A stretch of DNA of 31,041 nt from a virus: positions 1 through 31,041 of the IMG/VR virus record IMGVR_UViG_3300035698_019002. One strand, 5' to 3'. Position 1 is the first letter of the stretch. Every line of letters begins with the position of its first letter. Position numbers and translations under genes: made by a program. Shown here one piece after another: positions 8,826-31,041 of this stretch. The notes beneath the pieces were generated by a model. That model had not been told where the DNA came from. It ran no database searches and was given only the letters and a program-made list of their open reading frames with translations.

Positions 8826-11012
8826 ATGGTTAACTATCGAAAATTATTCCCTGGAATGGGTGAAGCAGTTGCTAAAAGAACAATACTGAGAAAAAAAAGC
8901 AATGGACATTTAGAAACATGGGGAAATGTAGCTCATAGAGTAGCTGTTGGTAATGCTTTATTGACTAATAATACTAAAATAAAAAACAAAGAAGAACATA
9001 TACAAGTAGAGAAAGAAGAGCTTGAAAAGTATATAGCAAAGGGTGCTCTTTTAATGAGTGGTCGCCACCTACAGCACGGTGATGAGAATCAGATAAATAG
9101 AACAATGGAAATTTTTACAAATTGCTCGACTAGTTCATCATCTTTTATATTATTTTACTTATTAATGAACGGCTCTGGAGTTGGTAGATCTTACGATGAT
9201 GATTTAATGATTGTAAACTGGTCAGAGAATATGCCTCATATAAAAATAGTATTAGATGAATCACATGCTGATTTTGATTATACAATAATGGAGGGGACTA
9301 GAGAAGCTAAAAGAAAATATTCAACTGCCAAATGGTTTGAGGTTCCTGATAGTAGAGAAGGATGGGCACAGGCTGTAGAAAAACTTGAAGTAATGACTTT
9401 CCAAGAAAGGTTTAAAGACACTACTTTTGTATTAGATTTCTCGAAGATACGACCCAATGGATCTCCTATCGCAGGGATGCAAGGAAGACCGGCTTCTGGT
9501 CCTGTTCCTCTTATGAGAGCATTCCAGAGTATTATGAGTCTTAAAGGTTCTGACATGGATGTTTGGGAACAAAGTATGTGGGTTGACCACTATTTAGCAG
9601 AATGTGTGCTGGTTGGTGGTGCTAGAAGAAGTGCTAGAATTGCAACTAAACATTGGAAAGATAAAACAGTACTTGACTTTATTAAGGTTAAGCAGGGCGG
9701 ATTCTTATGGAGTGCTAATAATTCAGTTATGGCTGATGAAGAATTCTGGAAGCAAGATACAAAGTTTAAGAAAAATGTATTGGATTCAATACTAGGGGCT
9801 AGTTACAATGATGGTACAGGAGAGCCAGGGATTATTAATCAAGATAAGCTGGTACAAAAAGACCAGGGGCTAGAGGTTTTTAAGGATGGTAGATATGCTG
9901 AAAGTTTAAGATATAAGCCAACAAAGGGTGCGCAGGAATATATGAAGATTGTTGCAAGTAATGTTCTTTCAAAAAAATATACTCAAATAACTAACCCATG
10001 TGGTGAAATAAGTTTGAATATGATGGCTGGATATTGTGTGATAGCAGACACTGTTCCTTATTTAGCTGAATCTGATGAAGAAGCTGAGAATATTATGAGG
10101 GCTGCAACAAGAGCTCTTATCCGAGTTAACACTATGGATTCTCTCTATAAAAAAGAGGTTGTCAGAACCAATAGAATAGGTGTTGGTATGACTGGTCTTC
10201 ATGAGTATGCATGGAAAAGGTTTGGATACGGTTTTAGGGATCTTGTGGACGAAGAAAAGTCTAAAGACTTCTGGATGATGCTATCTAAATTTAAGAGAGC
10301 TATTGATGAGGAGTCAGAAACATACTCTGAGCTTCTTGGAGTAAATGTTCCGCATACGAATAGTACGGTTAAGCCTGCTGGAACTACAAGTAAACTATTT
10401 GGTCTTTCAGAGGGTGTTCATCTTCCTTCCATGAGAGAATATCTTAGATGGGTTCAATTCAGAACTGGTGATCCTATTGTAGCTGAATATGAAGCAAAAG
10501 GTTATCCAACCAAGGAACTAAAAACTTACAAGGGTAGTACTATTGTAGGATTTCCAACTCAACCAGAGATTTGTAGACTTGGTATGGGTAGCAAGTTAGT
10601 TACTGCTGGCGAAGCAACGCCCGAAGAACAATATAAATGGTTAATGCTTCTAGAGAAGTATTGGATTGTTGGAGTTGATGAGAATGAGAAACCGCTCACA
10701 AGCAACACTGGTAACCAAATATCTTACACACTTAAATATAAACCAGACTTAGTAGGATTTAATTCTTACTCTGATACATTTAAAAAATATCAGGCGCAAG
10801 TTAGATGTTGTAGTGTTATGCCTCAAGTTGATGCAACTGCTTATGAATATCAACCAGAACAGCAAATTACCAGAGACTACTATAATAAGTTAATGAGACA
10901 CATTGAGCTTGGTGGACCAAAAGAAGATGTTGACTTCGTTCATGTAGATTGTGTTGGAGGAGCTTGCCCAGTGGACTTTTATAAAGATGAGGTATTGACA
11001 GACACTGAATAA
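8826..11012 (+). CDS. nrdJ: Adenosylcobalamin-dependent (class II) ribonucleotide reductase, monomeric type
   Basis: 728 residues, the length of the Lactobacillus RTPR-like monomeric class II enzymes. It reduces ribonucleotides to deoxyribonucleotides using a cobalamin-generated thiyl radical and needs no second subunit. C100 in FTNCSTS and C404 in AGYC are the likely redox pair. NPCGE at 390-394 gives the thiyl-radical Cys392 and the catalytic Glu394. C-terminal C709-x4-C714 (CVGGAC) is the shuttle pair that passes electrons from thioredoxin, with the same four-residue gap as in RTPR. FYLLMNGSGVGRSYDDD just after C100 is also typical of the family. There is no intein or frameshift. A strong AAAGGAG site precedes ATG 8826, with terminators on both sides, so it forms its own unit. 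No nrdI, nrdH or nrdB partner is seen. Confidence 0.92.
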   Translation: MVNYRKLFPGMGEAVAKRTILRKKSNGHLETWGNVAHRVAVGNALLTNNTKIKNKEEHIQVEKEELEKYIAKGALLMSGRHLQHGDENQINRTMEIFTNCSTSSSSFILFYLLMNGSGVGRSYDDDLMIVNWSENMPHIKIVLDESHADFDYTIMEGTREAKRKYSTAKWFEVPDSREGWAQAVEKLEVMTFQERFKDTTFVLDFSKIRPNGSPIAGMQGRPASGPVPLMRAFQSIMSLKGSDMDVWEQSMWVDHYLAECVLVGGARRSARIATKHWKDKTVLDFIKVKQGGFLWSANNSVMADEEFWKQDTKFKKNVLDSILGASYNDGTGEPGIINQDKLVQKDQGLEVFKDGRYAESLRYKPTKGAQEYMKIVASNVLSKKYTQITNPCGEISLNMMAGYCVIADTVPYLAESDEEAENIMRAATRALIRVNTMDSLYKKEVVRTNRIGVGMTGLHEYAWKRFGYGFRDLVDEEKSKDFWMMLSKFKRAIDEESETYSELLGVNVPHTNSTVKPAGTTSKLFGLSEGVHLPSMREYLRWVQFRTGDPIVAEYEAKGYPTKELKTYKGSTIVGFPTQPEICRLGMGSKLVTAGEATPEEQYKWLMLLEKYWIVGVDENEKPLTSNTGNQISYTLKYKPDLVGFNSYSDTFKKYQAQVRCCSVMPQVDATAYEYQPEQQITRDYYNKLMRHIELGGPKEDVDFVHVDCVGGACPVDFYKDEVLTDTE

Positions 11013-17047: not shown

Positions 17048-19741
17048 CTATGTTGGTCCTACTGGATTATTTTCTGTTTGTGAGTCTTGTAGATTTTTAT
17101 TAATATCTTCTATTCTTTTAGGAACTTCTGGCAATCTAGATGATGCCTCTAAATCAATATGATTTGGATAATAAGTAATACTTAATATCTGAATAACATC
17201 TGCTGCACTTGATGATAGGGTTTGATCCCAAACATCCATATCCCACTCCATTTGATCCCAATAAGATATACTTTTTACATCTTCCCTCAACCCTTTAATA
17301 GACATCGTGTCACCAACTCTGATTGATTCTATATCATATCCAAAGTTGCTTTTTTGACCATTTGAATCAGCTATTCTTATAATGGTTCTTATTTCTGGAT
17401 CTTTTCTTGTATTAATAATTCTATTTGATATTGTTTCAGCAGTATTTACATCTGTAACTCTTTGATCTATTACCTTTGAAGAGTATAATCCGTAAGTACC
17501 AATTGATCCGGTGTTTTCATAAATTCTATATAGCGATGGGTCACCACCACCAGTAAAATATACTCTATTAACAAGATCTTCTATTCTTCTAAATGTAGCC
17601 ATATTCACGACAGTTTTTTTAATAACAAATTCGTGGTCAGCTAATTCTGATTTATTATGTAAGTGAATGATATTATCTGGGGCTATATACCAGTACCAGC
17701 CAACAGGGCAAAGTTCAATAACTTTATCAAGTGCTTCTTTTACTGTACTGCTGTTAAATGTATATGATACACTAGTTCCTGTCAAATCAATTGAGTCATT
17801 ATCATAGTATATTGTTCCACCATCTGCGCGGTATTTGTCTATGATATCGGTTAAGATATCTGAAGGATCTTGACTTGAATAAACTATGGTAGTGTCTCCA
17901 CTCCCATCTCTTAACATAAATCTTTGAGTTTCAGCTATATAATTTAAGACAGTAACTTCAACATACTCTTTTGAATTTTCTAAAACTGGTCTATAGCCAG
18001 TTATATATCCACTATATATTAGCATTCCCGAAGGTGTTTCTCTATCAGAAACCCATATTTCAACTCTATTATTTAGTTTCACATCAATATCTTCTCCAAA
18101 ATCATCGAAGTTTCTGTCAAGACGGACGCTTAATTCTCCAAATCCACCATTAATAACTCCTCTAAATCCTGGTTCATTTAATATTTCATTAGCCCAAGAT
18201 GCAACAAATTCTTCACCATCATATACTCTGTAAAAAAACTTCTTTTTTCCATATTGTGCTGATATATTTGCTTTAGCACAACCTGATTTTACTCCAGCTA
18301 TTCTTGCTTTTGAACTATAATTATTTGATTCAGATCTAGATATACTTGCTTTAACTTGATTTCCAACATAATTAAATGTTTCAAATATTGCTACTACATC
18401 AGCTGCGTGTGTCCAAGATACTTCATCATCTGTAGAATATTCATATAATCCATCTGGATAAGTTGGAGACGATACATCAATTCCAACTATATATCCTCTG
18501 TCTGGGGACGATGATGTTGTTGTTGAACCAGAGGATCTCCAGGTAAAGTGATAGGTATCACCTGGAACAACAGTGGTTCCTCCCATATCAAAATCTACCC
18601 ATTTAATATCAGTATTATTAGTTCCATCAGGAATTTGATTTGATGGAATACTTATTGTGTATATTACATTTCCAGGATCTCCGCCATCATCCTCATGTAT
18701 TTTAATAAGAAAGTCGTCGGTTGCCCCACTTTCTTTCCACATATAAAGTCTTAATTTTGAAATGTTGTTTTGATCTGGAATAAATTCTTGACCACCTATC
18801 CAGCCTGATGTTGCTATGTCATCAATATTTCCATCAAAATTTGAATCATCATATTGTTGATCTACTGGTTGTACATCACCATTTATTATTGTTTTGACAA
18901 TGCTTGATTTTGCACTTGATTCTAAATTAACAAAAGAACCAGTTAAATATCTAACAATAACAACACCACTTCCACCAGCTCCAGATGTTGCACTACCACC
19001 ACCAACAGCAGCTCCTCCACCAGAGCCAGTATTTGCTGTTCCAGAACCGGCAGTTCCACCACTGCCATTACCATTACCACCGCCACCTGATCCACCAAAA
19101 CTTGTGTCACTTGAACCAGTTCCAGCTCCTCCTCCTGCTCTAGTTACAGCTGATCCTGTGATTGAGCTAGATAATCCAGAGCCACCATCTCCTGGGTTAT
19201 TATCACTAGCATTTCCTCCAGCAGACCCAGCTCCCCCTCCACCACCGCCTGCTCTATCTTGTTCAACACCAGTTGATGTAGTACTACCTCCAGAATTTCC
19301 TTGTCCACCAGTAGCACTACCACCAGTTTGGAAAGCTCCACCAGTTGAACCACCACCACCTGATCCACCACTTCTACCATTACTTCCTGCTTGAGCACCA
19401 CCACCACCACCATCTGCAGTTATTGTTCCAAAAATTGAGTCTCCACCATCTGATCCAGCAACATTTCCTGTTGTTTTTGCTGCACCGCCCGCTCCTACAG
19501 TTACCGTGATGGGAGTATTTAAAAAAACTTCATATCCAGTGTCTGTAAGATAACCACCAGCTCCTCCACCGCCTAAACCGAATGCAGTTCCAGCGTCTCT
19601 TGCGCCAGACCCACCACCAGCAATAACAAGGTATTCAACCTCACCACTACCAGATATTGGTGTGAATGTTCCGCTTGATGTAAAGGTGTGTATGGTATAA
19701 CTACCATTTGTAGTTATTGTTCCACCTGTTGCGTCAGCCAT
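17048..19741 (-). CDS. Tail hub (gp37-like) protein with N-terminal polyglycine domain
   Basis: 897 residues from ATG 19741, chosen because it forms a TAATG overlap with the Dit gene and has AAGG upstream; an ATG at 19789 lies inside the Dit gene. Residues about 1-280 form a glycine-rich domain opening YTIHTFTSSGTFTP and VEYLVIAGGG and closing SGVVIVRYL, the standard Gly-rich fibre module. Residues about 300-450 look like a lectin/CBM-like beta domain (FIPDQNNISKLRLYMW...). The C-terminal half resembles siphovirus ReqiPepy6 gp37-like tail hubs, with FFYRVYDGEEFVASW, a GYITGYRPVLEN strand and WYWYIAPDN. It would close the tail tip after Dit. Adhesive modules are usually at the other end of hub or Tal proteins, so this fusion is odd. 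Confidence 0.7.
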   Translation of the reverse strand: MADATGGTITTNGSYTIHTFTSSGTFTPISGSGEVEYLVIAGGGSGARDAGTAFGLGGGGAGGYLTDTGYEVFLNTPITVTVGAGGAAKTTGNVAGSDGGDSIFGTITADGGGGGAQAGSNGRSGGSGGGGSTGGAFQTGGSATGGQGNSGGSTTSTGVEQDRAGGGGGGAGSAGGNASDNNPGDGGSGLSSSITGSAVTRAGGGAGTGSSDTSFGGSGGGGNGNGSGGTAGSGTANTGSGGGAAVGGGSATSGAGGSGVVIVRYLTGSFVNLESSAKSSIVKTIINGDVQPVDQQYDDSNFDGNIDDIATSGWIGGQEFIPDQNNISKLRLYMWKESGATDDFLIKIHEDDGGDPGNVIYTISIPSNQIPDGTNNTDIKWVDFDMGGTTVVPGDTYHFTWRSSGSTTTSSSPDRGYIVGIDVSSPTYPDGLYEYSTDDEVSWTHAADVVAIFETFNYVGNQVKASISRSESNNYSSKARIAGVKSGCAKANISAQYGKKKFFYRVYDGEEFVASWANEILNEPGFRGVINGGFGELSVRLDRNFDDFGEDIDVKLNNRVEIWVSDRETPSGMLIYSGYITGYRPVLENSKEYVEVTVLNYIAETQRFMLRDGSGDTTIVYSSQDPSDILTDIIDKYRADGGTIYYDNDSIDLTGTSVSYTFNSSTVKEALDKVIELCPVGWYWYIAPDNIIHLHNKSELADHEFVIKKTVVNMATFRRIEDLVNRVYFTGGGDPSLYRIYENTGSIGTYGLYSSKVIDQRVTDVNTAETISNRIINTRKDPEIRTIIRIADSNGQKSNFGYDIESIRVGDTMSIKGLREDVKSISYWDQMEWDMDVWDQTLSSSAADVIQILSITYYPNHIDLEASSRLPEVPKRIEDINKNLQDSQTENNPVGPT

Positions 19742-20535
19742 TATAGATACCTTGGTTGATAAGATAGTGTTACTAGTCCGCCAGTCCAATCACCTACTCC
19801 TGAAAAAGTAACTGTGAAATTCCTCTCCCCTGGCTCCCATTCTGCAAAAGATCCGGAGCTTTTTTGAGTTGATGAATTCCTTAAAATTAATTGGGTATTA
19901 TAGTCTATTTGTAAGCTGTCTCCATAACTTATATTTTCTTCACTGACTCCACCAGACCAAACAACTGTTTCACCAGTTGAAACATATGCGAAATCAATTC
20001 TCTGAGTTTGTGTGTATCCTGCCCCAGCATCGACTTGAAGCGTTAATGATGGAGATGCAAAGTATGATCCTGATATTGTTATTTCTTCTGTGTGACTGAT
20101 TTCCCCAGATGCTATTGTAAACTCAACACTATGTTGATTGTCGTAGAAAAAGGGATCAGTCATTAATAACTCCATACTAAATGGAACATAGTCTGTGTTA
20201 TAGGGGTTTTCACTAAAGTCTAATCTTTGTAGTGTTGCAGTCCCAACTCTATCACTACTGAGTGCAAAAGTTGCCTCTGGAACAGATGAAACATTTCTAT
20301 GTAATGCATCTATTTTATCTCGTAGATCCATTGGTGAATTAGCTAGGATATATCCATCAATACGGATAGTCTTATTTCTATATTCATCATTAAGTATTCT
20401 TGACCCTGGTCTTCTTGCGATAGGTTCAAACTCCAAAGATCTCTCTGGAGCATGGTATTTTTTTACATTACTAGTAATAATACCAGTTGTCACTAAGTCT
20501 TGTAGTGAGTATGAGTTAAATTCTGGAAATGCCAT
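19741..20535 (-). CDS. Distal tail protein (Dit)
   Basis: 264 residues, with the size and layout of siphovirus Dit proteins. The N-terminal half (residues 30-130) is a split-barrel tail-tube-like domain with LNDEYRNKTIRIDGYILAN, then a DLRDKIDALHRNV helix and the FSMELLMTDPFFYD strand, all typical. The C-terminal half is a galectin-like beta sandwich (SGSYFASPSLTLQVDAG through SGDWTGGLVTLSY). It forms the ring at the tail end beneath the tape measure protein. It sits exactly where expected, between the tape measure and hub genes, and overlaps the hub start by one base. Confidence 0.85.
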   Translation of the reverse strand: MAFPEFNSYSLQDLVTTGIITSNVKKYHAPERSLEFEPIARRPGSRILNDEYRNKTIRIDGYILANSPMDLRDKIDALHRNVSSVPEATFALSSDRVGTATLQRLDFSENPYNTDYVPFSMELLMTDPFFYDNQHSVEFTIASGEISHTEEITISGSYFASPSLTLQVDAGAGYTQTQRIDFAYVSTGETVVWSGGVSEENISYGDSLQIDYNTQLILRNSSTQKSSGSFAEWEPGERNFTVTFSGVGDWTGGLVTLSYQPRYL

Positions 20536-29170: not shown

Positions 29171-30211
29171 CTACTCCTTTGGATTAGCCATATTTTTTAC
29201 ATCAACATCATACGAGTAGTAAGACTTCATCACTTCACCAGTTAGTGGTTCAGTTGAAGCATTATTTATAAATTGGCTTGATCGTACGCCGTATTTTTCA
29301 GCATTCGCTTTAATAACTCTTGCTGCCAATACTCTAAAGTCATTGTGAGCAAAGCTTGTTTTCATAAAGTTAGTTACTGATTTTTCAACCATTTCTTTGT
29401 CAGCTATAGGAAGGCTTTTTACTCCCTCTGGAGATACATATGCAAATTTATTAACATCTAGGGTATTCATTTGTTTAGCAAGGCTAATTAAGCCATCTAT
29501 TTTATCAACTCCAGTGTCACCAAGTATTTTAGATGCAGCAGATTTTAATTTTTCTGTTGCAGCCTCTAAGTCAGAGGTATCTTTTCCAGCGTAAATTCTA
29601 TCAACTATCATATAAATAAGATAATGAACCATTTCTATTACTTGGCTTACCTCTGCAATTGAAACCTGGTTTTCTAAGAAGTCAGCAACTTTACCATGTC
29701 TAGTTTCCATTTCCATCATTTCTTCATCACTTATTTCTGAAATCATTATTCTTCCATCTGTTGGTTCTTGGCTATCTGATTTAGAAAGTCCATCAAACTT
29801 TACCATTGTGAATACTGATTGTTGGTTTGCCGGTCTATCAACTAGTGATATTTCACTTAAAGTTAGATCTTTTATTCTATTCCCAACTCTAGTGTTTGCT
29901 CTTCCACCAATGGAAAAGCCGTTATATACACCTTCTTTTACTTTTGCCCAAGCATTATCATCAACAACTTTAACAGAAATAAATAATCCATTATCATCCA
30001 TGTCTGCTGTTTGTGTTTTTCCAACAGCACTAGGTTGATGCATTTCTCTTATGTTTGCGAACTTCATATAATCTGGAAGTGCTCTAAGTATTGCTTCTTT
30101 TTCTACAATTTCCCCTTGAGAATCAACTGATTCAGTTGAGGCATAGCCATAAACCATTCTCTCTTCATCATTTCTTTTTTCAAAAGGAATAAAAATATTA
30201 GTGTCATTCAT
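29171..30211 (-). CDS. Prohead serine protease (XkdF / S78-like)
   Basis: 346 residues, with the protease in the first 140. VYGYASTESVDSQGEIVE at 20-37, His58 in REMHQP, Ser100 in YNGFSIGG and SLVDRPAN at 122-129 reproduce the herpesvirus-like prohead protease fold and catalytic His/Ser positions. The remaining 200 residues are largely helical and unusual in size; such extensions can act as a scaffold in protease-scaffold fusions. GGAG precedes ATG 30211. It would cleave the scaffold and capsid proteins during maturation. Confidence 0.8.
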   Translation of the reverse strand: MNDTNIFIPFEKRNDEERMVYGYASTESVDSQGEIVEKEAILRALPDYMKFANIREMHQPSAVGKTQTADMDDNGLFISVKVVDDNAWAKVKEGVYNGFSIGGRANTRVGNRIKDLTLSEISLVDRPANQQSVFTMVKFDGLSKSDSQEPTDGRIMISEISDEEMMEMETRHGKVADFLENQVSIAEVSQVIEMVHYLIYMIVDRIYAGKDTSDLEAATEKLKSAASKILGDTGVDKIDGLISLAKQMNTLDVNKFAYVSPEGVKSLPIADKEMVEKSVTNFMKTSFAHNDFRVLAARVIKANAEKYGVRSSQFINNASTEPLTGEVMKSYYSYDVDVKNMANPKE

Positions 30212-30306
30212 TTTTGTTCTCCATAGTAACTATGCTGCTCTTCTACAATAAATTTTCGTTTAGTTTTATCTTTTTTACCTGAAATAGGAAAAAGTCTTCC
30301 CTACAT

Positions 30307-30334
30307 CCTATAACTTTATACTATATCTTGTCAA
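30307..30334 (-). promoter_or_regulatory. Possible promoter before the protease gene
   Basis: Minus-strand TTGACA at 30334-30329 is followed by a weak TATAGG at 30312-30307 with 16-bp spacing. It lies in a 126-base gap (30212-30337) where no gene is seen. Confidence 0.4.
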
Positions 30335-30337
30335 ATA

Positions 30338-31041
30338 TTATGATCTATCGCTATAAGGACTCTTCTTTTTTGAATACTTAGTTGTAATATCATTATATGG
30401 TGTTGCTTTAGACTCAAATGGCTTTCCTATGTCTTTATAGGGAGTAAATCCTTTATATCCTGGATAAGATCTATACACCTGTCCATTTATTCTTATTCTT
30501 GCCTTAACCAGGTTTTTTGTGCTGATTGGTGGTATAAAGATGTCTGCCTTAACATTGCTGTGTACAATAATAACATTGGCAATTTTTGCTTTAACATTAT
30601 TATTAAAATAACTTGAAACTAATATATTTGATTTAACAAATACTTCTTCTTGTATAGTAAGTATAATATTTGCTTTAGAGCTCAATTCTATTGCTCTTGT
30701 ATTAACAATAGATGATTTAGAAAGATTGTCTAATATATTAGTAACTTCTATGTTTGCTTTTATCTGATTTTCATTCAGATTAGTTACTTCTATATTTGCC
30801 TTAACAACATTTACTGCCAATTCTGTAGAAACTATTTGTGCTTTTGTATTTAAAGCATTTAAAGCAGTTATAATTATATTAGATTTAGCTTGATTGTTTA
30901 TACTATTATCTACAACAATACTTGCTTTTGCATTATTTTCAAAAATTATAGTATTTACAATGTTGGCTTTAGAACTATTTTCGATGAATGCAGGTTTGAG
31001 TATATTAGCTTTTGAAGAATTAATTACATTAGCTGTACTTA
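30338..31041 (-). CDS. Tandem 14-residue repeat protein, 5' end outside window
   Basis: The minus-strand frame is open from 31041 to TAA 30338-30340, about 234 residues; a TTG at 30820 can look like a start, but the repeats continue upstream of it. About thirteen near-perfectly phased repeats have consensus [K][A/S][N/x]I followed by ten residues. Examples are KANIVNTIIFENNA, KASIVVDNSINNQA, KANIEVTNLNENQI, KANIEVTNILDNLS and KSNILVSSYFNNNV. All are 14 long except one of 15. Alternating hydrophobic residues suggest a beta-solenoid. The C-terminal 45 residues are basic with PYKDI, PYNDI and PYSDR. It may be a fibrous structural or head-associated protein; no family is recognised. Confidence 0.7.
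   Translation of the reverse strand, partial: STANVINSSKANILKPAFIENSSKANIVNTIIFENNAKASIVVDNSINNQAKSNIIITALNALNTKAQIVSTELAVNVVKANIEVTNLNENQIKANIEVTNILDNLSKSSIVNTRAIELSSKANIILTIQEEVFVKSNILVSSYFNNNVKAKIANVIIVHSNVKADIFIPPISTKNLVKARIRINGQVYRSYPGYKGFTPYKDIGKPFESKATPYNDITTKYSKKKSPYSDRS

Follow-up and report, generated by a model that had tools for sequence, protein, structure and literature searches.

What is encoded by the repeat gene that runs off the edge of an uncultured phage contig, and which part of the virion, if any, would its product build? The window (the whole stretch of DNA analyzed here) is a linear IMG/VR virus fragment that comprises 31,041 bases in its entirety, and the gene in question occupies its last 0.7 kb (Table 1). 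The reading frame provides 233 residues with no start codon ahead of the contig edge. The answer that we favor, with a probability of about 0.7, is that the gene specifies the C-terminal half of a large, modular protein of the virion, in which the repeat units would serve as the shaft or spacer of an adhesin.

Table 1. Positions of the features of the window discussed in the text
Feature	Position	Strand	Basis and remarks
Repeat-protein gene, 3' part	30338..31039	-	233 codons and end; N-terminus missing; ORF list with open ends
Array of 13 K-[A/S]-x-I anchored units	30494..31012	-	12 spacings (14 residues, 11 times; 15 residues, once); autocorrelation, DNA pattern
C-terminal tail, 51 residues, Tyr/Pro/Lys-rich	30338..30493	-	Composition and comparison with tails of L110, L062, and L059
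Prohead (S78-type) protease gene	29171..30211	-	PF14550 E 3.4e-9, PF04586 E 9.3e-7; PHROG head maturation protease
Dit (distal tail protein) gene	19741..20535	-	phrog_33 E 3.1e-9, phrog_202 E 3.7e-9; fixes identity of tail-tip region
Tail protein after Dit	17048..19789	-	Gly-rich N-terminal domain, conserved hub-like C-terminal part; PF21722 E 2.3e-22
Three units KASI, KARI, and KANI	18233..18352	-	Directly before hub-like part of tail protein; positions 480, 494, and 506
Single unit KSSI	18869..18910	-	Tail protein, residue 294, between Gly-rich domain and next domain

The 14-residue unit and its family

A preliminary description, made from the sequence alone, had reported about thirteen repeats with a strict 14-residue period anchored on K-A-N-I, one of them 15 residues long, and it proved correct in each detail open to checking. 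The K-[A/S]-x-I anchor falls at residues 10, 24, 38, 52, 66, 80, 94, 108, 122, 136, 150, 164, and 179 of the frame, with the single 15-residue spacing between the last two. BLOSUM autocorrelation of the frame gave z = 9.1 at lag 14, 7.2 at lag 28, and 7.4 at lag 42, and the lag-14 value was matched at any lag by none of 2000 shuffles. A DNA pattern requiring three KAxI units exactly 14 residues apart occurred twice in the window, against 0 expected from shuffles. The description had also held that the copies are diverged in DNA and that the repeat has been kept at the protein level. The unit copies share a mean base identity of 52% (maximum 67%) and a mean residue identity of 35%; the fixed Lys (AAA/AAG), Ala (GCA/GCT/GCC), and Ile (ATA/ATT/ATC) are written with mixed codons, and third-base agreement at the fixed positions is 0.45 to 0.82.

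When the window ORF served as query in a tblastn-type scan of viral contigs, no relative emerged, because the window units are diverged. The DNA pattern matched 56 contig stretches in viral contigs, and its KAxI/KGxI version listed 85. The unit profile over all loci covers 73 arrays and 1313 units at 37 loci (a few of them doubtful), nearly all of which are uncultured viral contigs; the unit is found in large proteins of surface type from dozens of uncultured viruses. Consensus positions 1 to 4 are K (83%), A/G/S, R/N, and I (88%); positions 5 to 14 are variable, variable, T, variable, variable, Q/K, T, I/L/V, variable, and A/G. Spacings between units are 14 residues in 1113 cases, 15 in 106, 16 in 8, 12 in 6, 17 in 5, and 13 in none. 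Arrays of 6 to 73 units, the longest uninterrupted one at locus L088, are interleaved with non-repeat domains in proteins that reach ~3000 residues (3080 residues and 113 units in L104). Almost every unit is distinct (681 of 683 in the first set), and, family-wide, the similarity of neighbors (0.400) does not exceed that of arbitrary pairs drawn from one array (0.397), leaving no trace of recent unit duplication. The view that the repeat is not a recent expansion is thereby upheld and, to judge from these comparisons, the arrays are old and maintained unit by unit.

Not every similar repeat was counted in the family. Among the matches listed by a genome scan, most were other 14- or 7-residue repeats (KADIATN, KAAIELR, and similar) and were set aside; a contig of a Blastocatellia MAG (L198) carries a real array. 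L079 and L101 (KANIANTTAEAGFA) and L111 (DDATDLYGL) resemble other repeats and were excluded from the clear members, and the doubtful loci L206, L074, and L095 were left out of the covariation tests. The 14-residue repeat on a contig of a Bathyarchaeota MAG (L152, 2-1792) is a different one, although its anchor is similar (KAVIRHSDTAELLG) and it may be distantly related to the family. At L087 (7465-10275, minus strand), an 11-unit array follows ~690 residues of a low-complexity stretch of the Ser-Pro-[VI]-Ser type, which is possibly another kind of stalk in one protein.

No credible match to the array was found in Pfam, PHROGs, or NCBIfam, and profile searches of PDB sequences returned only weak heptad-type matches and no describing family, in agreement with the earlier remark that the motif belongs to no recognized family. 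HMMER matches of arrays to SMC, exonuclease VII, beta-lactamase, and death-domain models scored below curated cut-offs and are repeat artefacts; weak PDB matches to galactose oxidase and spike HR1 were given no weight. A tblastn search with array proteins as queries detected no array among 50,697 annotated phage records and gave only weak matches to other parts of the proteins, with the proviso that the BLAST low-complexity filter may hide some arrays; judging from this search, the unit is likely absent from cultured phages. No account of the repeat was found in open-licence papers. At the level of sequence, then, the repeat is genuine, old, and widespread in uncultured tailed phages, and it is undescribed in the libraries searched.

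Gene neighborhood and companion domains

The first gene downstream of the array gene encodes a prohead protease, as the preliminary description had proposed. Three contigs, G001 (103,296 bases), G002 (22,132 bases), and G003 (17,396 bases), come from the phage group of the window, with major capsid proteins 66 to 67% identical to that of the window, and in each of them array proteins occupy the same place. The order array gene, protease, scaffold-like gene, capsid, and connector genes is kept in all four, with a 109-codon ORF between array gene and protease in G003; the tape measure, Dit, and tail protein come next in G001 and G002. The array gene thus sits in the structural gene block of the window and its three relatives, and gene order and relatives together point to a structural placement of its product. 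No array was found in the loci around 57 relatives of the protease, so the slot is not filled by an array in most relatives. The unrelated array phages L092 and L065 likewise have the array gene on the downstream side of a portal or adaptor gene, with the capsid gene further downstream in L092; L100 has it flanked by terminase and portal.

The same description had called the position portal-proximal. The adjacency to the protease stands; closeness to the portal is imprecise, as array genes occupy more than 13 kb ahead of the protease in G001 and the portal of that phage (phrog_2662, E 2e-63) is a separate gene. Like the terminase (E 8.3e-114) and a minor head-type gene of G001, this portal is free of repeats, and the array protein is therefore not the portal. 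The window ORF has no match to a PHROG portal and one weak match to an unnamed PHROG (E 0.031).

Several other features of these contigs were observed. In G003 (locus L242, 4167-7058, plus strand), a block of 28 tRNA genes and a tmRNA separates the scaffold-like gene from the protease and is read in the opposite direction to the structural genes; the window lacks tRNA genes altogether. In the window, array gene and protease are 126 bases apart (30212-30337, minus strand), and this gap includes a promoter-like site, TTGACA-18-TAGGAT (30334-30305), which may be a chance occurrence: the region holds 14 promoter-like sites against 10.1 in shuffles. The window and its three closest relatives each end within an array gene; this is partly expected for long genes on short contigs, and strain variation or repeats that break assemblies could play a part. 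Beside early-type genes on the plus strand of the window (8826-11012), a 728-residue ORF reads like the large chain of ribonucleotide reductase.

Candidate binding domains accompany the arrays of relatives. Laminin_G_3, a concanavalin A-like lectin domain, was detected in array genes of G001 (E 1.6e-15) and G003 (E 5e-17); none is visible in the window protein, whose N-terminus lies outside the contig. DUF2341 was found in array genes of G001 (E 5.5e-8) and reached 20.9 bits in G003, below the cut-off of 23.4. A PHROG minor tail protein domain occurs in L067 (E 6.7e-8) and in a gene of the G001 array cluster (E 2.4e-9).

The unit also recurs in a second protein of the window, the tail protein encoded after Dit, which is 42 to 45% identical to its counterparts in G002 and G001. 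Two of its units stand at exact 14-residue spacing (0 expected for the DNA pattern), and units precede the conserved C-terminal part alike in the window, G001, and G002. Presumably this C-terminal part faces the virion, with the units just before it. The best explanation is that the 14-residue unit acts as a linker in the tail-tip protein and is a general construction element of the surface proteins of this phage.

In the array protein, the repeats are followed by a C-terminal tail that had been described as basic, with three P-Y-x-D motifs, and as a possible dock to the capsid or DNA. The motifs are PYKD, PYND, and PYSD, and the tail has a net charge of +7 and a pI of 9.8. A Tyr/Pro-rich basic tail after the array is common to L110 and L062 and less clear in L059, which fits a role as virion anchor. 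By analogy with the tail protein after Dit, where units precede the virion-facing part, the tail of the window protein is probably the anchor and its binding domains would be N-terminal.

The head-gene setting allows another interpretation, in which the protein is associated with the capsid (as a decoration, internal, or scaffold-assisting protein) and uses its basic array and tail to bind capsid or packaged DNA. The position among head genes directly before the protease, and pI values of 9.6 for the array and 9.8 for the tail, agree with such a role; however, we consider it unlikely, since the same unit is present in the tail protein after Dit, lectin-like domains occur in the array genes of relatives, and the proteins extend to ~3000 residues. 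Head fibers would fit both a capsid-associated protein and an adhesin.

Predicted structure of the unit

The preliminary description noted a regular hydrophobic alternation in each unit and suggested a new beta-solenoid. The alternation was confirmed: from position 11 through to position 6, the hydrophobic moment has its maximum at 180 degrees (1.53 in the family, 1.33 in the window) and is low at 100 degrees (0.38 and 0.37, respectively), which supports an extended strand. Charges at unit positions 3 and 5, neighbors on one face of such a strand, compensate each other (z -10.5) and support the same assignment. The strand is nearly symmetric around Lys1 (I12-x-A14-K1-A2-x-I4). Extended beta structure of the units is therefore supported at the level of hydrophobic pattern and charge compensation; the solenoid itself is not established. 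The AlphaFold model of the window protein (pLDDT 62, pTM 0.46) is all beta, the units of its first half having for the most part a single strand each, and that of L097 (pLDDT 55) is partly helical or mixed, with a helix at residues 23-67. Searches with the low-confidence window model gave a best PDB match of E 0.39 in Foldseek, a loose fit to hexapeptide beta-helices in VIA-align (Z 12.8 but rmsd 10), and a best match in BFVD to an unnamed viral protein (E 1.5e-3). Single-chain structure prediction can fail on an obligate oligomer. Covariation between adjacent units did not discriminate between modes of stacking: the parallel in-register arrangement had p 0.002 and one antiparallel register had p < 0.002, with both values uncorrected for 28 tests. 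The array may fold as a solenoid, a trimer, or a meander. Tentatively, and at rather less than even odds, the unit may define a novel shaft fold of a roughly ten-residue strand and a four-residue turn, with a mid-strand ladder of lysines flanked by Ala/Gly and Ile (I-x-A-K-A-x-I), exchangeable in head-region and tail-tip proteins of a broad set of uncultured tailed phages.

Low model confidence (pLDDT 62 and 55) and polar, Thr/Asn-rich turns are also what a disordered spacer with no fixed fold might give. This is improbable in view of the strict period, in which a 13-residue spacing is never seen, and of the conservation of Ile4 (88%) and Lys1 (83%) among units that are otherwise diverged. An alpha-helical coiled coil with two heptads per unit would account for the period (14 = 2 x 7), the weak PDB profile matches to helical heptad-repeat (HR1) peptides (best E 6e-5, no single stretch passing), and the helix in the L097 model, but it is likewise improbable, given a moment of 0.37 to 0.38 at 100 degrees versus 1.3 to 1.5 at 180 degrees, Gly or Ala at positions 2 and 14, Thr-rich turns, frequent 15-residue units, and the all-beta window model.

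A proposed modular adhesin shaft and its known counterparts

In the adhesin that we propose, the units would build an extended, beta-structured shaft that keeps binding domains of lectin-like or jelly-roll type at a distance from the virion. By analogy, those of the window protein would be expected N-terminal, beyond the contig edge, with the short Tyr/Pro-rich basic tail probably attaching the protein to the virion; the phage would reuse the unit as a linker in its tail-tip protein. The number of units varies freely and the unit itself does not (1113 spacings of 14 residues, 106 of 15, and none of 13), as expected of a length-variable shaft. The sequences directly show the repeat with its distribution, the order of the genes, and the domains that accompany arrays in relatives; for the array protein, we infer presence in the virion, direction of anchoring, receptor binding, and oligomeric state. 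As this widespread repeat has no entry in the family libraries, genes containing it receive the annotation hypothetical; with a profile of the unit, surface and host-range genes would be flagged in viral metagenomes. A structure of the unit would tell whether this is a new shaft fold, which could also find use as a rigid, length-adjustable spacer.

Several known systems offer partial parallels. The window model follows an elongated, beta-solenoid-like path similar to those of the tapirin beta-helix (VIA-align Z 10.7, rmsd 3.4, 180 residues aligned) and the RsaA beta-roll (Z 9.4, rmsd 4.2, 182 aligned), although the model is of low confidence and there is no sequence relation to either. YadA-type head repeats (Hep_Hag) form a left-handed parallel beta-roll with 14 residues per repeat, and the array shares with them its period, the expected beta structure, and a likely place in a surface stalk or head. 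Unlike them, it has Lys at the anchor and lacks the conserved glycines of the YadA motif, and the Hep_Hag Pfam model gave no match at E ≤ 1 for the window ORF or at E ≤ 0.1 for six relatives. Triple beta-spiral fiber shafts of the adenovirus type have a period of ~15 residues and are likewise beta-rich and length-variable. However, the array unit has one alternating hydrophobic run rather than two short ones, its turn (positions 7-10) is rich in Thr, Ser, and Gln with no conserved Gly or Pro, and neither the window ORF nor the six relatives matched the fiber shaft Pfam model. In functional class, the parallels are phage tail fibers and fibrillar adhesins, which are also encoded by large modular genes in the structural region and combine a long repeat stalk of variable repeat number with lectin-like domains; the array differs from these in its diverged, rather than near-identical, units and in a K-[AGS]-x-I unit present in none of the libraries searched. 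The kind of part proposed here, a repeat shaft, is already known, and the repeat itself is new to the libraries searched.
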